DNA of 64,000 nucleotides from Thiorhodococcus drewsii AZ1. GTDB lineage: Bacteria; Pseudomonadota; Gammaproteobacteria; Chromatiales; Chromatiaceae. The stretch lies in contig NZ_AFWT01000007.1 in NCBI RefSeq assembly GCF_000224065.1, positions 1 through 64,000 on the forward strand. The letters are read 5' to 3'. Made by a program: the position numbers and the translations under genes. Below, piece by piece: positions 36,997-50,799 of the stretch. Under the pieces are notes generated by a model, which searched no databases, was not told where the DNA came from, and was given only the letters and a program-made list of their open reading frames with translations. The first letter of the stretch is position 1, and each line of letters begins with the position of its first letter.

Positions 36997-39900
36997 ATGC
37001 ACGCCTTACAAGACGGTCTCTGGGACTGGGATCTGAGAACAAATCGCGTCTATTACTCTTCTGGCTGGAAGAGCATGCTGGGATACCGGGACGATGAACT
37101 GGAAGAGGGCTACGATACCTGGGTCCATCTGGTCGATCCGGACGCCAAGCCCAGGGTTGAGTCGCTCTTCCAAGACTGTCTGACCGGACGTCAGCCGAGC
37201 TTTTCCACCGGCTTTCGTATGCGTCACAAGGATGGTCACTGGGTCGACGTGCTTTCGCTCGGCATCTTGGTGCGCGATGCCGAGGGCGTTCCCGTGCGTT
37301 TCGCCGGAACTAACATGGACGTTAGCGAGCTGCGCCAGATGGAGCGGGATCTGTCCGAGACTCAGCGGATCGCCGAATTGGGGCATTGGCGTCTGGAGCT
37401 GGGCACCGAGCGTATGACCTGGTCGGAGGAGGTCTATCGGATCTTCGGAATCGATCCCCAGGAGGTCGAGGCGAGCACGGACCTCTTCGTCAGCATCGTC
37501 CATCCCGAAGACCGTGCGGTGGTTCGCAAGGCGTTCCTGGCGCACTTGGAGGAGCGGCTTCCATATCGGATGGAGCATCGGCTGCTGCTGCCGGACGGCA
37601 GCGTCAAGCACGTACTGGAACGCTGCGATACCCAGTACGACGAATCGGGCGCCCCCCTGAGATCGCTGGGAACCGTCGAGGACATCAGCCGGCAGAAGGC
37701 TCTGGAATTCGAACTGGTCGAGCGGGAATCCTGGGTCCGGCGCATCATCGACGCCGTGCCCGATGCCATCATGGTCGTGGATTCGGATGGCTGCATCGAG
37801 CAGGCGAACCGCGGCGCGGAGCGAATCTTCGGCTATGAGAGCCGCGAGTTGCTGGGGGCGTCCGTCGAGACGCTCATGCCCGCTCGCTTTCGCACCGGCC
37901 ATGCGATTCTGCGCCAGCGGTTCGAGTCCGAGCGATCGCTGCGCAGAATGGGAAAGGGCCGGGAACTCTTCGCCCTGGATGGCGGGGGGCGCGAATTCCC
38001 GGTGGAGGTCGGTCTGGCGCCGCTGCCCGGCAGCGACGAGGGGCATCTGGTGGTGTCGGTCGCCGACATCAGCGAACGCAAGGCCGCCGAACGGGTGCTG
38101 CGCGAAAGCAAGGAGCGGCTGAGGCTGATGACCAGCGGCGTCCGCGACTACGCCATCTTCATGCTGGACCCGGACGGCAGGGTGGCCTCCTGGAACGCGG
38201 GCGCGCAGCGGATGAAGGGGTATGAGGCCCAGGAGATCATAGGGCGGTCCATCGCATGCTTTCATCCGCCCGAGGAGGCGGCGTCGGGCCGGCCGTCAGC
38301 GCTGCTCGTGGAGGCGGCCTCAGAGGGGCGCGTCGAGACCCAGGGGTGGCTGATGCGCAAGGATGGCAGCCGTTTCTTCGCCGACGTGCTGATTACGGCC
38401 ATGCGGGACGAGCGCGGAACCCTGATCGGATTCTCCAAGATCACCCGCGACATCACAGAGCGCAAGGCGGCCGATGAGCGTCTGCGCAACGAGCGGGAAC
38501 AGCAGGAAACGCTGCGCGCGCTGTTGGAGATCAGCGTCTCCGGGGCCGCGCTGGAGGAGACGCTGGAGCAGTGTCTGAGCCGACTGCTGGATGTGTCTTG
38601 GCTCAGATCAAGACCCAGCGGCGGTGTTTTCCTGATGGATGAGCCCCAGCGTGGATTGCTGTTGGTCGTGTCTTGCGACCTTGATCCGGGAATTGCGGAT
38701 CTGTGCGTCAATCGCGTCTGGGTTCCGCGCGGATGCGGTCGGGATTCTCCGGACAGGAAGGCGGCCCATTCCAACGAGCCGAACGAGGCGCGGGCACTCA
38801 GCGCGCCGTGCATGCTGGACCGGGATCACTACGGTCTGCCACTCATTTCTAAAGGCGAACTGCTGGGCGCGCTGGTCTTGCATCTGGATGAGGATGTCCA
38901 GCAAGACGCGCTGAAGGCGCAGTTCCTGGCCTCGACCGCCGACATTCTGGCTGGCTACATCAGTCGGGAGAGTGCCGAGCGAGAGGTTGCGCAGCAACAT
39001 GGGCGTCTGGAGATTCTGGTCGCCGAGCGGACCGCCGATCTGGACAAGGCTCTCTTGGAGGCCGAGCGGCTGGCCAAGGTGAAGGATACCTTCCTGGCCA
39101 CCATGAGCCATGAGATTCGCACGCCGATGAACGCCTTGCTGGGCATGATGGAATTGGTGGCGATGCGCGGGCTCGAGGATGAGCAGGCGCGGATGCTCGA
39201 CCTGGCGCGGGATTCAGGGCAGGTGCTGCTACGTCTCATCGATGACATCCTCGATTATTCGAAGATCGAGGCCGGAAAGTTGACCGTCTCTCCTGAGCCG
39301 GCCTCCATCTCGGAGGTCGTGCAGCTGACGGCGAGTTTCTTCGAGCGATTGGCAAGCAGCAAGGGGTTGAGGCTCAGTTGCTGGGTGTCTGAAGAGATCA
39401 GCCCAGTGGTGAGCGTGGATCGGTTGCGCTTGCGACAGATCCTGAACAATTTCCTGTCCAACGCAATCAAGTTTACCGAGCAGGGCGAGGTCGAACTCGG
39501 GGCCGAGTTGCTGGAGCATCTTCCGGGCCTGGACCGCGTCTGCTTCAGCGTTTCCGACACCGGGATCGGGATCGCGCCAGAGGCGCAGGCGCGTCTGTTT
39601 CAACCCTTCAGTCAGGCGGACGCCGAGACGACTCGCCGTTTCGGTGGTTCTGGACTGGGCCTCGCCATCTGTCGCCGCTTGGCCGAGATCATGGGGGGGA
39701 GTATCGAGTTGAGTAGCGCGCCCGGGCAGGGCACAACCATGAGGTTGTTGTTGGATTTGCCCCTGGTGGACGACGCCTCGTTGCCCGAGCCGCATCTCGG
39801 GCAAGTGGGCGCCATGCATACTCGAGAGTCGAAAGTGCCGCCGACGGTGACTCAGGCCCAGGTGGCCGGCACTCTGATTCTGCTGGTGGACGATCATCCC

Positions 39901-40629
39901 TCCAACCGCGATGTCCTGACCCAGCAGCTGGAGCTGTTGGGCTATGCGTCGGAACAGGTGGTGAGCAGCACCGAGGCGCTGGAACGGTGGAAAAGTCGAA
40001 ACTATGGTCTGCTGATCACCGATTGTCACATGCCGGATATGGACGGCTATCAGCTCACCCGCGAGATCCGTCGTCTGGAGACCGAGACAGGCCGGCGGCG
40101 GATGCCGGTGTTGGGCTGGACCGCGAACGCTATGCGCAATGCGATCGACGAATGCCAGGCGGCGGGTATGGACGATCTGCTGGTCAAACCGGCCGATCTC
40201 GGCAGTCTGGCCGCCAAGCTGGAGCAGTTGCTGCCGCTATCGGGGGCGACCGGTGTCGCTCCCGATAGCGGCCAGCGGCAGGAACGTCCGGCGGATCTCG
40301 ACGAGGTGCTGGATCCCGCCGTGCTGCGCGAGCTGAGCGGCGGTGATTCGGACATGGAGCGGAGGCTCCTCGCGCGCTTCGACGCTACCAACCGAACGGA
40401 CGCAGAGGCGATCGAGCGCGCCTTCGCCGATCGGGACATGAAGGCGATCGCCAGCCTCGCGCATCGGATCAAGGGGGCATCCTCGATGATCGGTGCGCGC
40501 GCCCTGTCTTGCTCCTGCGAGGCGCTGGAGCTGGCGGGGCGGGACGCGGATTGGGGTCGGATCGAGGCGATACAGGGGTGCTATTTCAAGGCCTACCGGC
40601 GCTTGAGGTCGATACTCGACGGTCTATAG
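36997..40629 (+). CDS. Multi-PAS hybrid histidine kinase with receiver and Hpt domains
   Basis: This 1210-residue cytoplasmic phosphorelay protein has about four PAS domains (residues 1-490; GLWDWDLRTNRVYYSSGW, then IARIGY-like PAC motifs) and a GAF-like region (500-650). A histidine-kinase core follows with H-box MSHEIRTPMNALLGMMEL and N-, G1- and G2-boxes NFLSNAIKFTEQG, DTGIGIAPEAQARLF and GSGLGLAICRRLAEIMGG. Then come a receiver (about 960-1075; Asp in LLITDCHMPDMDG) and a C-terminal Hpt with His in LAHRIKGASSMIGARAL. No membrane segments are visible. An in-frame stop lies at 36958-36960, so ATG 36997 is the earliest start. The 3' end overlaps the convergent EAL gene by 44 bases. Confidence 0.92.
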   Translation: MHALQDGLWDWDLRTNRVYYSSGWKSMLGYRDDELEEGYDTWVHLVDPDAKPRVESLFQDCLTGRQPSFSTGFRMRHKDGHWVDVLSLGILVRDAEGVPVRFAGTNMDVSELRQMERDLSETQRIAELGHWRLELGTERMTWSEEVYRIFGIDPQEVEASTDLFVSIVHPEDRAVVRKAFLAHLEERLPYRMEHRLLLPDGSVKHVLERCDTQYDESGAPLRSLGTVEDISRQKALEFELVERESWVRRIIDAVPDAIMVVDSDGCIEQANRGAERIFGYESRELLGASVETLMPARFRTGHAILRQRFESERSLRRMGKGRELFALDGGGREFPVEVGLAPLPGSDEGHLVVSVADISERKAAERVLRESKERLRLMTSGVRDYAIFMLDPDGRVASWNAGAQRMKGYEAQEIIGRSIACFHPPEEAASGRPSALLVEAASEGRVETQGWLMRKDGSRFFADVLITAMRDERGTLIGFSKITRDITERKAADERLRNEREQQETLRALLEISVSGAALEETLEQCLSRLLDVSWLRSRPSGGVFLMDEPQRGLLLVVSCDLDPGIADLCVNRVWVPRGCGRDSPDRKAAHSNEPNEARALSAPCMLDRDHYGLPLISKGELLGALVLHLDEDVQQDALKAQFLASTADILAGYISRESAEREVAQQHGRLEILVAERTADLDKALLEAERLAKVKDTFLATMSHEIRTPMNALLGMMELVAMRGLEDEQARMLDLARDSGQVLLRLIDDILDYSKIEAGKLTVSPEPASISEVVQLTASFFERLASSKGLRLSCWVSEEISPVVSVDRLRLRQILNNFLSNAIKFTEQGEVELGAELLEHLPGLDRVCFSVSDTGIGIAPEAQARLFQPFSQADAETTRRFGGSGLGLAICRRLAEIMGGSIELSSAPGQGTTMRLLLDLPLVDDASLPEPHLGQVGAMHTRESKVPPTVTQAQVAGTLILLVDDHPSNRDVLTQQLELLGYASEQVVSSTEALERWKSRNYGLLITDCHMPDMDGYQLTREIRRLETETGRRRMPVLGWTANAMRNAIDECQAAGMDDLLVKPADLGSLAAKLEQLLPLSGATGVAPDSGQRQERPADLDEVLDPAVLRELSGGDSDMERRLLARFDATNRTDAEAIERAFADRDMKAIASLAHRIKGASSMIGARALSCSCEALELAGRDADWGRIEAIQGCYFKAYRRLRSILDGL

Positions 40630-42610
40630 GTGGGCGGTGGTCTTGGGCGGTGGCGACTTCGTTCGGTGTTTGGTCCAGAAGCGCCTCCGGTCGGATCACC
40701 TTGATGCGGGTCGCGGAGAGACTCTCGCGCAGATCCTGCAGACGATTGATGATGCTCGTTGTCAGCCGCGAGCCCTGAGTCAGGATCATCAGATTTTGGC
40801 GGTTGAACAGTGGTTCCGCGAGGATCATGCCTGCGCGCAGGAATGTCAGGGAAATGTGCTCTACAACGATGGGTGCGCCGCCCGCATCGTCCCAAGTTTC
40901 CTCTGATGTGGAGGTCAAGTCGGAGACGAGGCGATCGTTCGAGAGGGCGGCGGTGCTCAGTTCCCGGTAATGGCTGGGCGGCTGGGGCTGGTAATCCTCC
41001 GACATGGCGTTCTGGATGGCGTCCAGAAGGGTGCTGCTTCGGGCTGGTTTGGCCAGGAAGCCGTTGATGTCCAGTACGATGGACTTGAGGACGATGTCTT
41101 GGTCGCGATGGGCGGACAGCAGGATGATGCGTGTCGCGGGATCTGCCTGTGTTTGCTGGGTTCGTATGAGTTTGACCAGATCCAATCCGCTGTGGCGGTC
41201 CAGTTTGACGTCGCTGATGACCAGATCGACTGGGTTTTCCGCCAGGATCTTCAATGCGCCGTCCAGGTTGGTCGCGGTATGCACCAGGCCTAATTCCAAC
41301 TGGGCCAACAGTTCGCCATAGGCCTCGAGCTGGAAGTTCTCGTCCTCCACCAAGAGGATGTCTAACTTCTGTCGCTCCGAATTGTGGCGTTGGGTCGTCG
41401 ACCTGAGGGCCGAGATACGCCATTGGCCCAGCCAATCGGCGATGGCTTCGTGTGGCATGGGCTTGGCGATCAGGTACCCTTGCGCGAGATCGCAGCCCAA
41501 CTGGCTAAGCATCTCCCAGTGTTCGACGGTCTCGACGCCTTCCGCCGTAACCTTCAGCCCCAATCTGCGGGCCAGATCCATGGTCGACTCGATGACGATG
41601 CGCGTGGTTTCGTGGTGGAGCGCATCCTGGACGAAGGACTGGTCGATCTTGAGTTCGGTGAACGGCACGCGGGTCAGTTGCTGCAACGACGAATAGCCGG
41701 TTCCGTAATCGTCCAGCGATAAGCCGAAGCCGAGGAGGCGCAGCCGCGCTAGATTTTCGATGCAGGGGCCGACGGAACTCATGGCCGCCGACTCGGTGAT
41801 TTCGAGCAGGATCGACGAGGGCGCGAGGTCACAGTGAGTCGCCGCCTCGTGGAGTCGCTCGGCCAGTCCGGCATGTCCCAGATTGCTCAACGAGAGATTG
41901 ACCGAGACGGAAAGAGGCAACCCCCGATCCCGCCAGCTTTGGCAGACGGCAGCCGATTTGGTCAGCATCACGAAGGTCATGGCGTCCATCAGGCCGGCCG
42001 ATTCGACGTCGTCCAGAAAGGCGCCTGGCGCTAAGAGACCCCGCGACGGGCTGGCCCAGCGCACGAGCGCCTCCATACCGACGACCTTGCCGCTGTCGAC
42101 CTCTACCTTCGGTTGGAAATAGGGGATGAATTCGCCCAGCTTCAGGGCTGCAACGATCTCGCTTTCCGGAATGGGATCGCGTTTGCTGTGTGCTTTGCGC
42201 GTGACCGCGCCGACCTCGCGGTTGGCGATGAGCGTCTTCATGCGGCTTCTGGATGGAGGATATGGCATGGTGCCGAGAATCTTGGCGCCGTATGCCTTAC
42301 CCATGGCCGCCACCGAGTCCAGCAGGGCATTGCCCAACGCGCTGACCAGGATGACCGAGGTGTTTGAGTCGCTATTGGCGAGGTTGCGCAGGAAGGCCAT
42401 TCCATCCATGTCCGGCATATTGATGTCGCACAGGATGATGTCAATCGGTGTGTCGGTGGTATCCAGCAGATCGAGCGCGACACGCCCGTTTTCCGCCTTC
42501 ATTATTTTGGTGGCGCCGAAGTTGCCGAGCAGGAGTTCCAGCGCGTCGCGTTGGAACTCCTCGTCCTCCACGATTAGGAAGCGAAGCGCATCGAGGGGCT
42601 TGTCATTCAT
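40586..42610 (-). CDS. Receiver-EAL-receiver cyclic-di-GMP phosphodiesterase
   Basis: This 674-residue protein has an N-terminal receiver (about residues 8-125; Asp in IILCDINMPDMDG), an EAL domain (about 150-395), a second receiver (about 410-530; VISDVKLDRHSGLDLV) and a C-terminal extension. The EAL catalytic residues appear intact: GMEALVRW, Asn in VNLSLSNL, EITESAA, LDDYGTGYSSLQQL, ELKIDQSF and AEGVET. It should hydrolyse cyclic di-GMP under control of two phosphorylation sites. It is tail-to-tail with the hybrid kinase gene, so the two may form a signalling pair. Confidence 0.9.
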   Translation of the reverse strand: MNDKPLDALRFLIVEDEEFQRDALELLLGNFGATKIMKAENGRVALDLLDTTDTPIDIILCDINMPDMDGMAFLRNLANSDSNTSVILVSALGNALLDSVAAMGKAYGAKILGTMPYPPSRSRMKTLIANREVGAVTRKAHSKRDPIPESEIVAALKLGEFIPYFQPKVEVDSGKVVGMEALVRWASPSRGLLAPGAFLDDVESAGLMDAMTFVMLTKSAAVCQSWRDRGLPLSVSVNLSLSNLGHAGLAERLHEAATHCDLAPSSILLEITESAAMSSVGPCIENLARLRLLGFGLSLDDYGTGYSSLQQLTRVPFTELKIDQSFVQDALHHETTRIVIESTMDLARRLGLKVTAEGVETVEHWEMLSQLGCDLAQGYLIAKPMPHEAIADWLGQWRISALRSTTQRHNSERQKLDILLVEDENFQLEAYGELLAQLELGLVHTATNLDGALKILAENPVDLVISDVKLDRHSGLDLVKLIRTQQTQADPATRIILLSAHRDQDIVLKSIVLDINGFLAKPARSSTLLDAIQNAMSEDYQPQPPSHYRELSTAALSNDRLVSDLTSTSEETWDDAGGAPIVVEHISLTFLRAGMILAEPLFNRQNLMILTQGSRLTTSIINRLQDLRESLSATRIKVIRPEALLDQTPNEVATAQDHRPPIDRRVSTSSAGRP

Positions 42611-43713: not shown

Positions 43714-45423
43714 TCAGTAGCGCACGCGCAGGATGAGCAGCTCGGCTCCACGCTGCTCGAAGAGGATTTGGATGGCGCCTTTGCGTCGCTCTAGCTTGGA
43801 GTCCGAATTCAGAAAGATGACCTCGAATGTGGCGATCGCGGCGCAGCGTTTGCCGTCGGCGGTCGGCTTGACACGGAGCTGGTCGAAGTCGATGCGGCGC
43901 GCGCGCGTGGTGGCGAACCATTGCCGATAGGTCTGGCGGATCGCGAACCAGGTGCCGAGATCGTTCTCTTTGGCCAGCGGGCTGTAGAGGGCCATGAAGT
44001 CGTCCAGCGAGCCCGACTGATAGTTGTGCTGGAACGCCTGCATCCGTGCTGGGACCTGGCTGCAGATAGCGGCCGTTTGGGCGCGGCCCCTGGTGCTGGA
44101 GGTGATTGCCGGGGCGGCGCCCAGACGCAGCGGTAGCTGAGGCGACTGGGGTGGTGTCGGCGGTGTCGGGGCCGGGGTCGAGGGAATTTGGAGCTCAGGC
44201 TGGAGCGGGGGAGCCGGCTCTGGAGCAAGCCCCGGTTGGATTGACGGCTGCTCAATGATCGGGGCCAGATTTGGGGGCTCCTGGCCGATCGAAGGCATCG
44301 GCGGCACCAGCGGTTCCCAGGTCGTTTCTGGTTCGAGTCCGTTCGGCTCGGTTGGGGGCGATGCGGGCTCGGACGCCTTCGGCGTATCCGTGGATTCCGG
44401 GGACGGCTCGGCCGGTGCCGTCTCTTGTTGGGGCTCTGTCTCGGTGAGCGAAGGCGAGGCGGCGGGCGCTGTGCTCGTCTGGTTCGATGATGCGTCGGTC
44501 GCGTTCGTCTCTTCGGGGGGGGCAGTCGTTTCCTGGGCAGGCGCTGGCTCCGGGGTAGGCGGTACCTCGGGTGTCGCCTGTGCGATCTGGAGCGGCGCTT
44601 CCGGTTCGGTCGGCGTGTCGCTTGTCCGGGTTGGCTTTGGCGGCGCGGGTGGGATCGCGTCCGTTTCCTCGGGCGCGGGGTGTGAGTCCGGTTCGGCTTG
44701 GGCGAGCGGTCGGGGTTCGGGGGCGACGGTCTCCTTGGGTGGCGTCTTGTGCACCTCGCCGAGCGGGTGGTGGATGATCTTCGGTCGCGGCTTGGGCGTC
44801 TCGTGGAATAGCGGCGCGAGTGCCAGGATCAGAGCCGTCGCCAGGATAGCGCCGGCCCAGCGACGAGCCTTGGGGCGGGCGATGAGTTCGCGCCAGGGTT
44901 GGGGGCGCGTCCAGGACTGAATCCATGCGAGGGCATGCGTGATCCTGTCCCCGGGTGTCGATGGTCCGGGTGGCGTTTCCTCGGACTGGGTCGAGGACGT
45001 CGTGGCGCCCTTGTCGCTCGCTTCGGCGCGGCGGAAGGCGTCGAAGGCCCGGTTGATCTGTTCGGTGTGCTGGGTGGCCCAGGCCGTTTTGTCCGGGTGC
45101 CGGTCTGGATGATAGACCTGGATCAGCCTCCGATAGCGCTGTTTCGCTAGGTTCTGATCGGCGTCCTGGGGGAGTCCCAGCGTGGCCGCCGAGGGTTGTT
45201 GGTCGGTCGGGAAGAGCGCTTGGTCGAGCAATTGATAGGCACGGGTCGCGGCCCGGCCTCGATCCAGCCGACTCGCCTCGATCGCTTTGTCGAGATCGCT
45301 TGCGCGAGAGTTGTCCGGGTTGGCGAGCCAAAGCAGGAGCGCGTCCAGATGTGTTTCGATCGCGCGCGAGGGGCGGCCGCTTTCGAGCGATTTGGCGATC
45401 TGTCGTGTCCAATGCGCGGTCAT
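43714..45423 (-). CDS. Membrane-anchored J-domain protein with Pro/Glu-rich linker and NTF2-like tail
   Basis: This 569-residue protein has an unusual layout. A J-domain (about residues 78-132) carries the HPD motif at 105-107. One membrane segment (about 189-206, AGAILATALILALAPLF) follows. A very long Pro/Glu/Thr-rich stretch (about 207-445) comes next, and then a C-terminal SnoaL/NTF2-like domain (about 460-569) with DFMALYSPL and a mixed beta pattern. The predicted topology puts the J-domain in the cytoplasm, where it could activate DnaK, and the NTF2-like domain in the periplasm, separated by the extended linker. A PilZ gene is divergent. Function is unknown. Confidence 0.8.
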   Translation of the reverse strand: MTAHWTRQIAKSLESGRPSRAIETHLDALLLWLANPDNSRASDLDKAIEASRLDRGRAATRAYQLLDQALFPTDQQPSAATLGLPQDADQNLAKQRYRRLIQVYHPDRHPDKTAWATQHTEQINRAFDAFRRAEASDKGATTSSTQSEETPPGPSTPGDRITHALAWIQSWTRPQPWRELIARPKARRWAGAILATALILALAPLFHETPKPRPKIIHHPLGEVHKTPPKETVAPEPRPLAQAEPDSHPAPEETDAIPPAPPKPTRTSDTPTEPEAPLQIAQATPEVPPTPEPAPAQETTAPPEETNATDASSNQTSTAPAASPSLTETEPQQETAPAEPSPESTDTPKASEPASPPTEPNGLEPETTWEPLVPPMPSIGQEPPNLAPIIEQPSIQPGLAPEPAPPLQPELQIPSTPAPTPPTPPQSPQLPLRLGAAPAITSSTRGRAQTAAICSQVPARMQAFQHNYQSGSLDDFMALYSPLAKENDLGTWFAIRQTYRQWFATTRARRIDFDQLRVKPTADGKRCAAIATFEVIFLNSDSKLERRKGAIQILFEQRGAELLILRVRY

Positions 45424-45605: not shown

Positions 45606-46025
45606 ATGACTAACGCAGAACGTCAGTTTCTTCGTCATCCGTCGGACGTCCCCATCAGCTATTCGCTGCGCGAGTTGGTCGTCGACAGGAGCGACTATCT
45701 TCGCAATATCGGCGAGGGCGGTCTTTGCTTCAGGTCGCGGATTGCGATTGCGCCTGGCACTGGGATCCATATCGAGATTCCGATCGCCAAGCCCGTCTTC
45801 GAGGCCGAGGGGGTTGTGGTCTGGTGTCGGGACGTGGAGGGCGCCCACGAGGTGGGTGTGCGATTCGATAGCGTCGATGTCGAATACGGTCTCCGCATGG
45901 TCGAGCAGGTCTGTCAGATCGAGCACTATCGGCGGAAGATGCTGGTTCGGGAAGGTCGGGTTCTCACGGGCGAGGAGGCGGCGATGGAGTGGATCCAGAA
46001 ATACGCCTCGCATTTTCCGCGTTGA
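45606..46025 (+). CDS. PilZ-domain protein
   Basis: This 139-residue protein has a PilZ domain (about residues 5-100), with the RxxxR motif as RQFLR (6-10) and the second motif as NIGEGGL (34-40). The latter has Gly where the consensus Ser of (D/N)xSxxG lies, a tolerated variation. It should bind cyclic di-GMP. The C-terminal about 35 residues form a helix with EHYRRKMLVREGR. It starts at ATG 45606 and converges with pgm. Its targets are unknown. Confidence 0.88.
   Translation: MTNAERQFLRHPSDVPISYSLRELVVDRSDYLRNIGEGGLCFRSRIAIAPGTGIHIEIPIAKPVFEAEGVVVWCRDVEGAHEVGVRFDSVDVEYGLRMVEQVCQIEHYRRKMLVREGRVLTGEEAAMEWIQKYASHFPR

Positions 46026-48035: not shown

Positions 48036-50799
<2,764 letters not shown>

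Follow-up and report, generated by a model that had tools for sequence, protein, structure and literature searches.

A predicted membrane J-protein family tied by gene context to exopolysaccharide loci, with HPD-less and AAA+-headed relatives

A close described counterpart of the protein studied here is DjlA of Escherichia coli, a membrane-anchored J-protein which acts with DnaK on inner-membrane partners and raises capsule synthesis via Rcs (PMC11709261). This activity needs the J-domain, membrane location, DnaK and GrpE, and the H233Q form of DjlA is inactive. Its likeness to our protein lies in one span, predicted here, and a J-domain that would be cytoplasmic here too; DjlA itself is tied to capsule synthesis and uses DnaK and GrpE (PMC11709261). 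On the side of polysaccharide export, the tyrosine autokinase and co-polymerase Wzc has been proposed by its authors (PMC8285477) to cycle between an octamer and phosphorylated monomers. J-domains, NTF2-like domains, the XrtA/PEP-CTERM AAA+ ATPase model TIGR03015 and Wzc loci are already known. A search of the PMC literature, a scope with subscription papers and preprints mostly outside it, returned no description of the domain combination reported below, and the Wzi paper PMC3791409 notes just a DnaJ-like helical bundle in Wzi. Described here is a membrane J-protein family which gene context ties to exopolysaccharide (EPS) loci, and which has relatives that lack HPD or bear an AAA+ head.

The gene lies in a window of 64,000 nucleotides, the whole stretch of Thiorhodococcus drewsii AZ1 DNA that was analysed, and forms an open frame of 569 codons with no internal stop (Table 1). 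From N to C terminus, the computed parts of its product are a helical domain, a J-domain, one predicted membrane span, a Pro-rich linker and an NTF2-like domain. The sequence-only reading of this DNA had proposed the succession of J-domain, span and NTF2-like domain, which is borne out by Pfam, hydrophobicity, structure prediction and VIA-align. Neither of the two outcomes that it had named against itself, a hydrophobic segment outside the membrane and an unrelated C-terminal fold, appears in the predictions, where the segment is a model helix and the C-terminal region has an NTF2-like fold. The order of parts sets the protein apart from DjlA, in which a short periplasmic N-terminus is followed by the span, a TerB-like domain and, last, the J-domain, whereas in the window protein the J-domain (75-140) precedes the span (189-207), and linker and NTF2-like domain follow. 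Against the NCBIfam DjlA model (NF006948) the window protein scores 18.8 bits, below the cut-off of 162, and TerB-like is not among the three families that Pfam lists for it at E up to 1. With DnaJ (5nro_B) it has the J fold and the HPD motif in common, but the zinc and C-terminal substrate domains of DnaJ are without a Pfam match in it.

Table 1. Coordinates of the J-protein gene, its parts and the divergent neighbour, in window positions
Feature	Residues	Position	Strand	Basis
J-protein gene, whole	569 aa	43714..45423	-	ATG start, stop codon within coordinates; aligned orthologue starts agree
N-terminal helical domain	1-74	45202..45423	-	model helices 4-15, 20-24, 26-34, 39-50, 55-70; without Pfam name
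J-domain	75-140	45004..45201	-	PF00226 match and structural match to 5nro_B
HPD motif	105-107	45103..45111	-	sequence
Single predicted transmembrane span	189-207	44803..44859	-	hydrophobicity and model
Pro-rich low-complexity linker	208-451	44071..44802	-	composition
NTF2-like domain	452-569	43717..44070	-	structure prediction, Foldseek, VIA-align
Cys454	454	44062..44064	-	one of two cysteines in the protein; invariant in C-terminal alignment
Cys527	527	43843..43845	-	second cysteine; invariant in C-terminal alignment
PilZ-domain gene		45606..46025	+	PF07238 E 2.6e-11; divergently oriented, with 182 bases between it and the J gene start

Residues 81-130 match PF00226 (DnaJ) with E 2.9e-8 and 34.1 bits, above the gathering cut-off of 27.8, and the J part of the predicted model superposes on the J-domain of DnaJ in its complex with DnaK (5nro_B) with Z 5.2 and rmsd 2.0 over 61 residues. 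The HPD motif, already reported as intact, indeed lies undamaged between helices II and III. In the host, PF00226 proteins number seven, and a single DnaK passes the model cut-off. In the model of the first 210 residues, predicted with 18 aligned relatives (pLDDT 82.7), the J-domain is preceded by a conserved helical domain (residues 4-70, pLDDT block means 87-97) which had escaped the earlier reading. It is 69% identical to its counterpart in Imhoffiella purpurea, and L26, D27, W32 and P36 are invariant in 14 aligned members; locus L105, with stops in its translation of this region, was kept out of the N-terminal alignment. The VIA-align search covered the helical domain within the larger N-terminal model, and its rows (top Z 6.2) were J-domains or generic helical bundles, which support neither a kinship nor the novelty of this domain.

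The segment 189-207 is the sole hydrophobic segment of the protein (mean Kyte-Doolittle 1.83) and overlaps a model helix at 184-206, so that the single membrane span suggested before stands as a prediction. Net charge is +4 over the 15 residues on its N-terminal side and +2 on its other side. We infer that helical domain and J-domain are cytoplasmic, and that linker and NTF2-like domain are periplasmic. The linker had been described as a Pro/Glu tether of about 240 residues; its length of 244 residues and its richness in Pro (64) hold, and its composition goes beyond Pro and Glu (28), with 30 Thr and 30 Ala. Likewise, a very long tether is present in the window protein, but linker length across 43 full members varies from 23 to 398 residues, and therefore a long tether is not essential. 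As a defining trait, a tether long enough to span the periplasm was rejected on two members of the window and X branches with linkers of 23 and 35 residues.

Rates of change follow the same division of parts. The helical part, J and NTF2 are conserved and subject to purifying selection; fast change is seen in the linker and in residues 141-207. Compared with I. purpurea (G001), the J part has 71% identity (dN 0.25, dS 0.85), the NTF2 part 69% (dN 0.18, dS 0.55) and the linker 37% (dN 0.73, dS 1.52); for residues 141-207, comparison with the T. violacea gene gave dN 1.26 and dS 1.09. A phage origin was considered and rejected, the PHROGs matches being just two, both weak (E 0.0024 and 0.007) and both covering the J-domain.

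For the C-terminal 129 residues, modelled with 18 aligned relatives, the prediction is of high quality (pLDDT 92.9, pTM 0.84) and displays the NTF2 order of helices and strands. The model matched 423 PDB chains in Foldseek at E up to 0.001; its best VIA-align match was the NTF2-like protein 3soy (Z 17.0, rmsd 1.5, 119 residues), and NTF2 itself (1oun) gave Z 15.3. The SnoaL/NTF2-like assignment made from sequence is thereby sustained as a fold. The SnoaL Pfam families stay below their cut-offs in the window protein (SnoaL_3 17.4 versus 22, residues 459-545; SnoaL_2 13.9 versus 27), and one relative, L008, passes the SnoaL_2 cut-off with 28.2. Domains of the same fold occur in Csd6 (4xzz, Z 16.7) and Bd1075 (7o21, Z 15.0), which we take to be envelope enzymes; their sequence identity to the window protein is 12% and 7%, and Pfam and NCBIfam showed no enzyme domain in it. 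The protein has only two cysteines; both belong to the NTF2 domain, and neither varies over 19 aligned C-termini. Such a pair fits an oxidising compartment, and a candidate periplasmic disulfide Cys454-Cys527 would be the simple reading of the alignment. E-, N- and A-type members have no cysteines in the NTF2 domain.

Profile searches of 116 genomes of the host's family and 369 of its class both found the same order of parts elsewhere. Including the window protein, 48 members were extracted, and helical-J part, span, linker and NTF2 were all detected in 43 of these, which come from several families of the class. In the other five the NTF2 part was not detected: three are short (212, 233 and 280 aa), one is truncated where its contig ends, and in one the NTF2 match lies in a different frame. 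To date, the known occurrence of the family is in Gammaproteobacteria. When named genomes were scanned with 14 aligned members, 21 loci were recovered, each labelled as a Chromatiaceae genus (Thiocystis, Thiorhodococcus, Allochromatium, Imhoffiella, Thiobaca, Chromatium or Thiocapsa) or MAG. The tree was built from 43 of the 48 rows, leaving out the five members with no detected NTF2 part, and one of its rows has a masked stretch, read as X. The 16 window-type rows form one clade (support 99/99), and together with the four EPS-cluster X members, to which they are sister, they form another (support 100/100). Window-type loci number 21, with 16 placed by the tree and five (G032, L094, L099, L100 and L105) by similarity only; G032 is split over two contigs and stands outside the 48, and L099-L101 are partial.

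Gene context ties this family to EPS loci. Members were collected by sequence and their neighbourhoods read later, with the exception of L007, L008 and L018, which had already been seen beside wzc. The EPS genes tested were wza, wzc, cpsB, wzy, wcaJ and yjbH. Reference neighbours were identified by family models in three loci and the remaining loci by similarity to these: L058 has Wzc (Wzz, GNVR and AAA_31), Poly_export (E 1.8e-21), CpsB_CapC (E 1.6e-45) and Wzy_C (E 1e-13), L142 has YjbH (E 1.2e-136) and L148 has WcaJ above cut-off. Beyond the window branch, at least one tested EPS gene was present in the DNA covered at 29 of the 32 loci; wzc directly adjoins the J gene in 20 and lies in the same cluster in 2 more, and the order wzc-J-TPR recurs in 19. 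In E-type loci wzc adjoins the J gene without exception (13/13), the four X members are placed with cpsB and/or wza, wzc and wzy, and the eight N members are found with wza-wzc-TPR (3), cpsB (1), wcaJ (2) or yjbH (2). For the five members with no detected NTF2, wzc adjoins four, and the fifth has just the TPR-like gene. The two AAA+ fusions among the 48 are near none of the tested EPS genes. It is well supported that the usual home of the family is a Wzx/Wzy-type EPS locus of the form wza-wzc-J-TPR, often with cpsB and wzy.

The J gene is an optional part of such loci. Wzc matches in the host's family total 35, from 29 genomes; for 16 of them the cluster includes a J gene, and 10 inspected clusters have none (L152-L161, with L153 and L161 cut by a contig end). 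For the other 9 (31-35% identity), for which presence was judged from the genome search only, the best family match of the genome had E 5.8e-10 to 2.3e-8, a level that corresponds to ordinary J-domains. Three genomes (G113, G080 and G057) have two wzc clusters each, one with and one without the J gene (L075/L152, L086/L155 and L076/L159), and offer natural paired controls. After the J gene, or after wzc, EPS loci encode a conserved TPR-like protein with a length of about 410-480 aa (L058:8021-9472, with counterparts in L063, L064, L067, L068, L072-L077, L085-L089, L141, L145-L147 and L151); for the L058 copy, Pfam gave no match at 0.01, and the NCBIfam matches were all weak. Near wzc there are also separate NTF2-like ORFs without J-domain, at L146:11062-11625 (188 codons) and L158:4094-4894 (267 codons).

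It had been suggested that the J-domain might be linked to an envelope or cell-wall process. The gene context of the relatives, as read for the tested EPS genes, agrees with the envelope link, and the process it points to is exopolysaccharide synthesis and export, not the cell wall; what was noted on the side of a cell-wall role is the fold likeness of the NTF2 domain to Csd6 and Bd1075. Neighbourhood differs from interaction, and the EPS link rests on gene context.

In accordance with these observations, we propose a membrane-anchored co-chaperone that would bring DnaK to the envelope polysaccharide machinery. The protein would be a single-span inner-membrane protein with helical domain and J-domain inside and linker and NTF2-like domain in the periplasm. 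Its J-domain would recruit DnaK in the ATP form to the cytoplasmic membrane face, where it would trigger ATP hydrolysis on a client of polysaccharide assembly, and its NTF2-like domain may bind a periplasmic partner or a glycan and thereby place or gate the action of DnaK. In EPS loci the client would most likely be Wzc, a fitting candidate because of its proposed cycle between octamer and phosphorylated monomers. Taken as a whole, we regard this statement as evenly balanced between right and wrong. Its parts differ: the family and its EPS link are well supported, the step in which DnaK acts on EPS assembly is plausible, and the client is a guess.

The HPD motif bears on the DnaK step. HPD is kept in 38 of the 48 members, among them all 20 window and X rows and all 13 E rows, and is lost in 10, with QPD, QPE, CLD, WNE, YQD, YQE or TIG in its place; four further loci beyond the 48 also lack it. 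The replacement QPD matters since DjlA H233Q is inactive as a co-chaperone. Hence, part of the family should be unable to use DnaK in the usual way, and activation of DnaK can be expected of the HPD-bearing members at most, as judged from their motif. These losses are also what would be seen if the J-like domain were mainly a docking or dimerising module for a partner encoded in the EPS locus, DnaK being unneeded and the HPD of the window protein an ancestral relic or a minor feature. J folds without HPD are known from Tim16-type J-like proteins, and by description the likeness concerns the HPD-less members only, the window protein itself having HPD. In favour of such docking, helix III, span and NTF2 remain where HPD is lost, and 8 of the 10 HPD-less members stay beside EPS genes. 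However, retention of HPD throughout the window, X and E rows argues against it, and one change on the tree explains the loss, which may be the history of a single lineage rather than a general relaxation. We consider docking rather unlikely. As a separate observation, two HPD-less N members (L146, E 1.6e-20; L147, by eye) have a response-regulator receiver domain between the J-like part and the span.

Some relatives have an ATPase of their own. TIGR03015 was found above cut-off together with the same NTF2-like end in L144 (E 2.3e-106), L115 (2.2e-102) and L124 (4.4e-98), and below cut-off in L126, L132 and L118 (strong) and in L133 (weak); in L150 the evidence is a 65% match to the AAA+ part of L144. 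Five AAA+ loci examined have an HPD-less J-like domain (L144, L150, L166, L173 and L174), and six combine AAA+ and NTF2 with no profile-detected J-domain (L115, L118, L124, L126, L132 and L133). None of the 38 HPD-bearing members has an AAA+ match. The window protein differs in the same way, with an intact J-domain and neither an AAA+ domain in Pfam and NCBIfam scans nor a TIGR03015 match at the level of that model. In two loci (L166 and L173) the AAA+/J-like proteins carry two tandem NTF2-like domains and lie upstream of yjbH.

One reading of these relatives is that EPS loci use one frame of span, linker and periplasmic NTF2-like domain with exchangeable ATP-coupled heads, either a built-in AAA+ or a J-domain that borrows Hsp70. 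On this view the export machine of HPD-bearing loci would include DnaK as an active component, for example in disassembly of the Wzc octamer, much as auxilin and Hsc70 take clathrin apart. This fits with the fact that AAA+ and HPD were never found together. It is weakened by the single loss of HPD on the tree, by the 8 of 48 members that have neither AAA+ nor HPD, and by the presence of a tested EPS gene at only 2 of the 11 AAA+ loci examined (L166 and L173, yjbH only). We regard exchangeable heads as a speculative and improbable reading.

The branch of the window protein itself lives elsewhere. None of the 21 window-type loci is near a tested EPS gene (64 kb covered for the window, 7-18 kb for the others), and in the 64 kb of the window the J gene is without any of these genes, outside an EPS locus of the tested kinds; L083 has one distant AAA match, at 30%. 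Half of the 14 window-type genomes, including that of the window, have no Wzc match at 1e-20. In the seven with a match, identity is 28-35% for six and 57% for G023, whose match lies next to an additional J gene of EPS type. Poly_export genes are present in 11 of the 14 and absent from G027, G094 and G123. Because this branch stands outside the EPS locus, is often paired with PilZ and has half of its examined hosts without this Wzc, its client is probably another envelope-polysaccharide or c-di-GMP-controlled surface process.

The PilZ counts that follow cover window-type loci. A divergent PilZ gene lies 96-202 bases from the J gene in 11 of the 21 distinct loci, and the gene on its far side is pgm (seven loci), dsbD (two) or neither of these (two), which argues that the PilZ-J pair is kept while the surroundings change. 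In the window, the stretch just before the J gene (36997-42610) holds two ORFs whose domains were read by eye, a large one of PAS/histidine-kinase/receiver type (36997-40629, +) and one of REC-EAL-REC type (40586-42610, -); with the PilZ gene they look like a c-di-GMP signalling neighbourhood. Another reading is a DjlA-style stress sensor, in which the NTF2-like domain would sense the periplasmic state, and J-domain and DnaK would alter an inner-membrane signalling pair in a c-di-GMP/PilZ pathway instead of an export machine. The kept PilZ pairing speaks for this, as does DjlA, which weakens the contact of IgaA with RcsD while its H233Q form does not (PMC11709261). But PilZ also occurs apart from the J gene and is more widespread than the pairing: it is present in 37 of the 116 genomes of the family, and only 7 of 14 sampled window-type genomes have PilZ, 6 of them adjacent to the J gene. 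We think a stress sensor of this kind unlikely.

Other neighbours of the window type carry less meaning. Both pgm and htpG track the clade, and as partners they were rejected, since neither is beside the gene in Allochromatium (L092 and L094) or Thiobaca (L104), where PilZ is. The htpG (Hsp90) gene of the window (48036-49955) is three genes from the J gene and is near it in Imhoffiella, Thiorhodococcus and some Thiocystis loci only; its proximity is probably inherited gene order. J-domain proteins combine with many partners, and if this remark is put together with clade-bound neighbours, the protein might be a class C J-protein like any other, fused by chance, its context being inherited gene order and nothing else. 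That 43 members, drawn from several families of the class, share one order of parts speaks against this, and EPS neighbours that differ by lineage (wzc, cpsB, wcaJ, yjbH) are hard to fit to one inherited order, so we consider a chance fusion very improbable indeed.

Membrane J-proteins reveal where bacteria send DnaK. With a J family at home in Wzc-type loci, DnaK would become a candidate component of EPS assembly, and the family's HPD-bearing, HPD-less and AAA+-bearing relatives form a natural series for testing the use of Hsp70 power in EPS loci. Such a family would, in addition, hint at what the NTF2-like tails on XrtA-type ATPases do.
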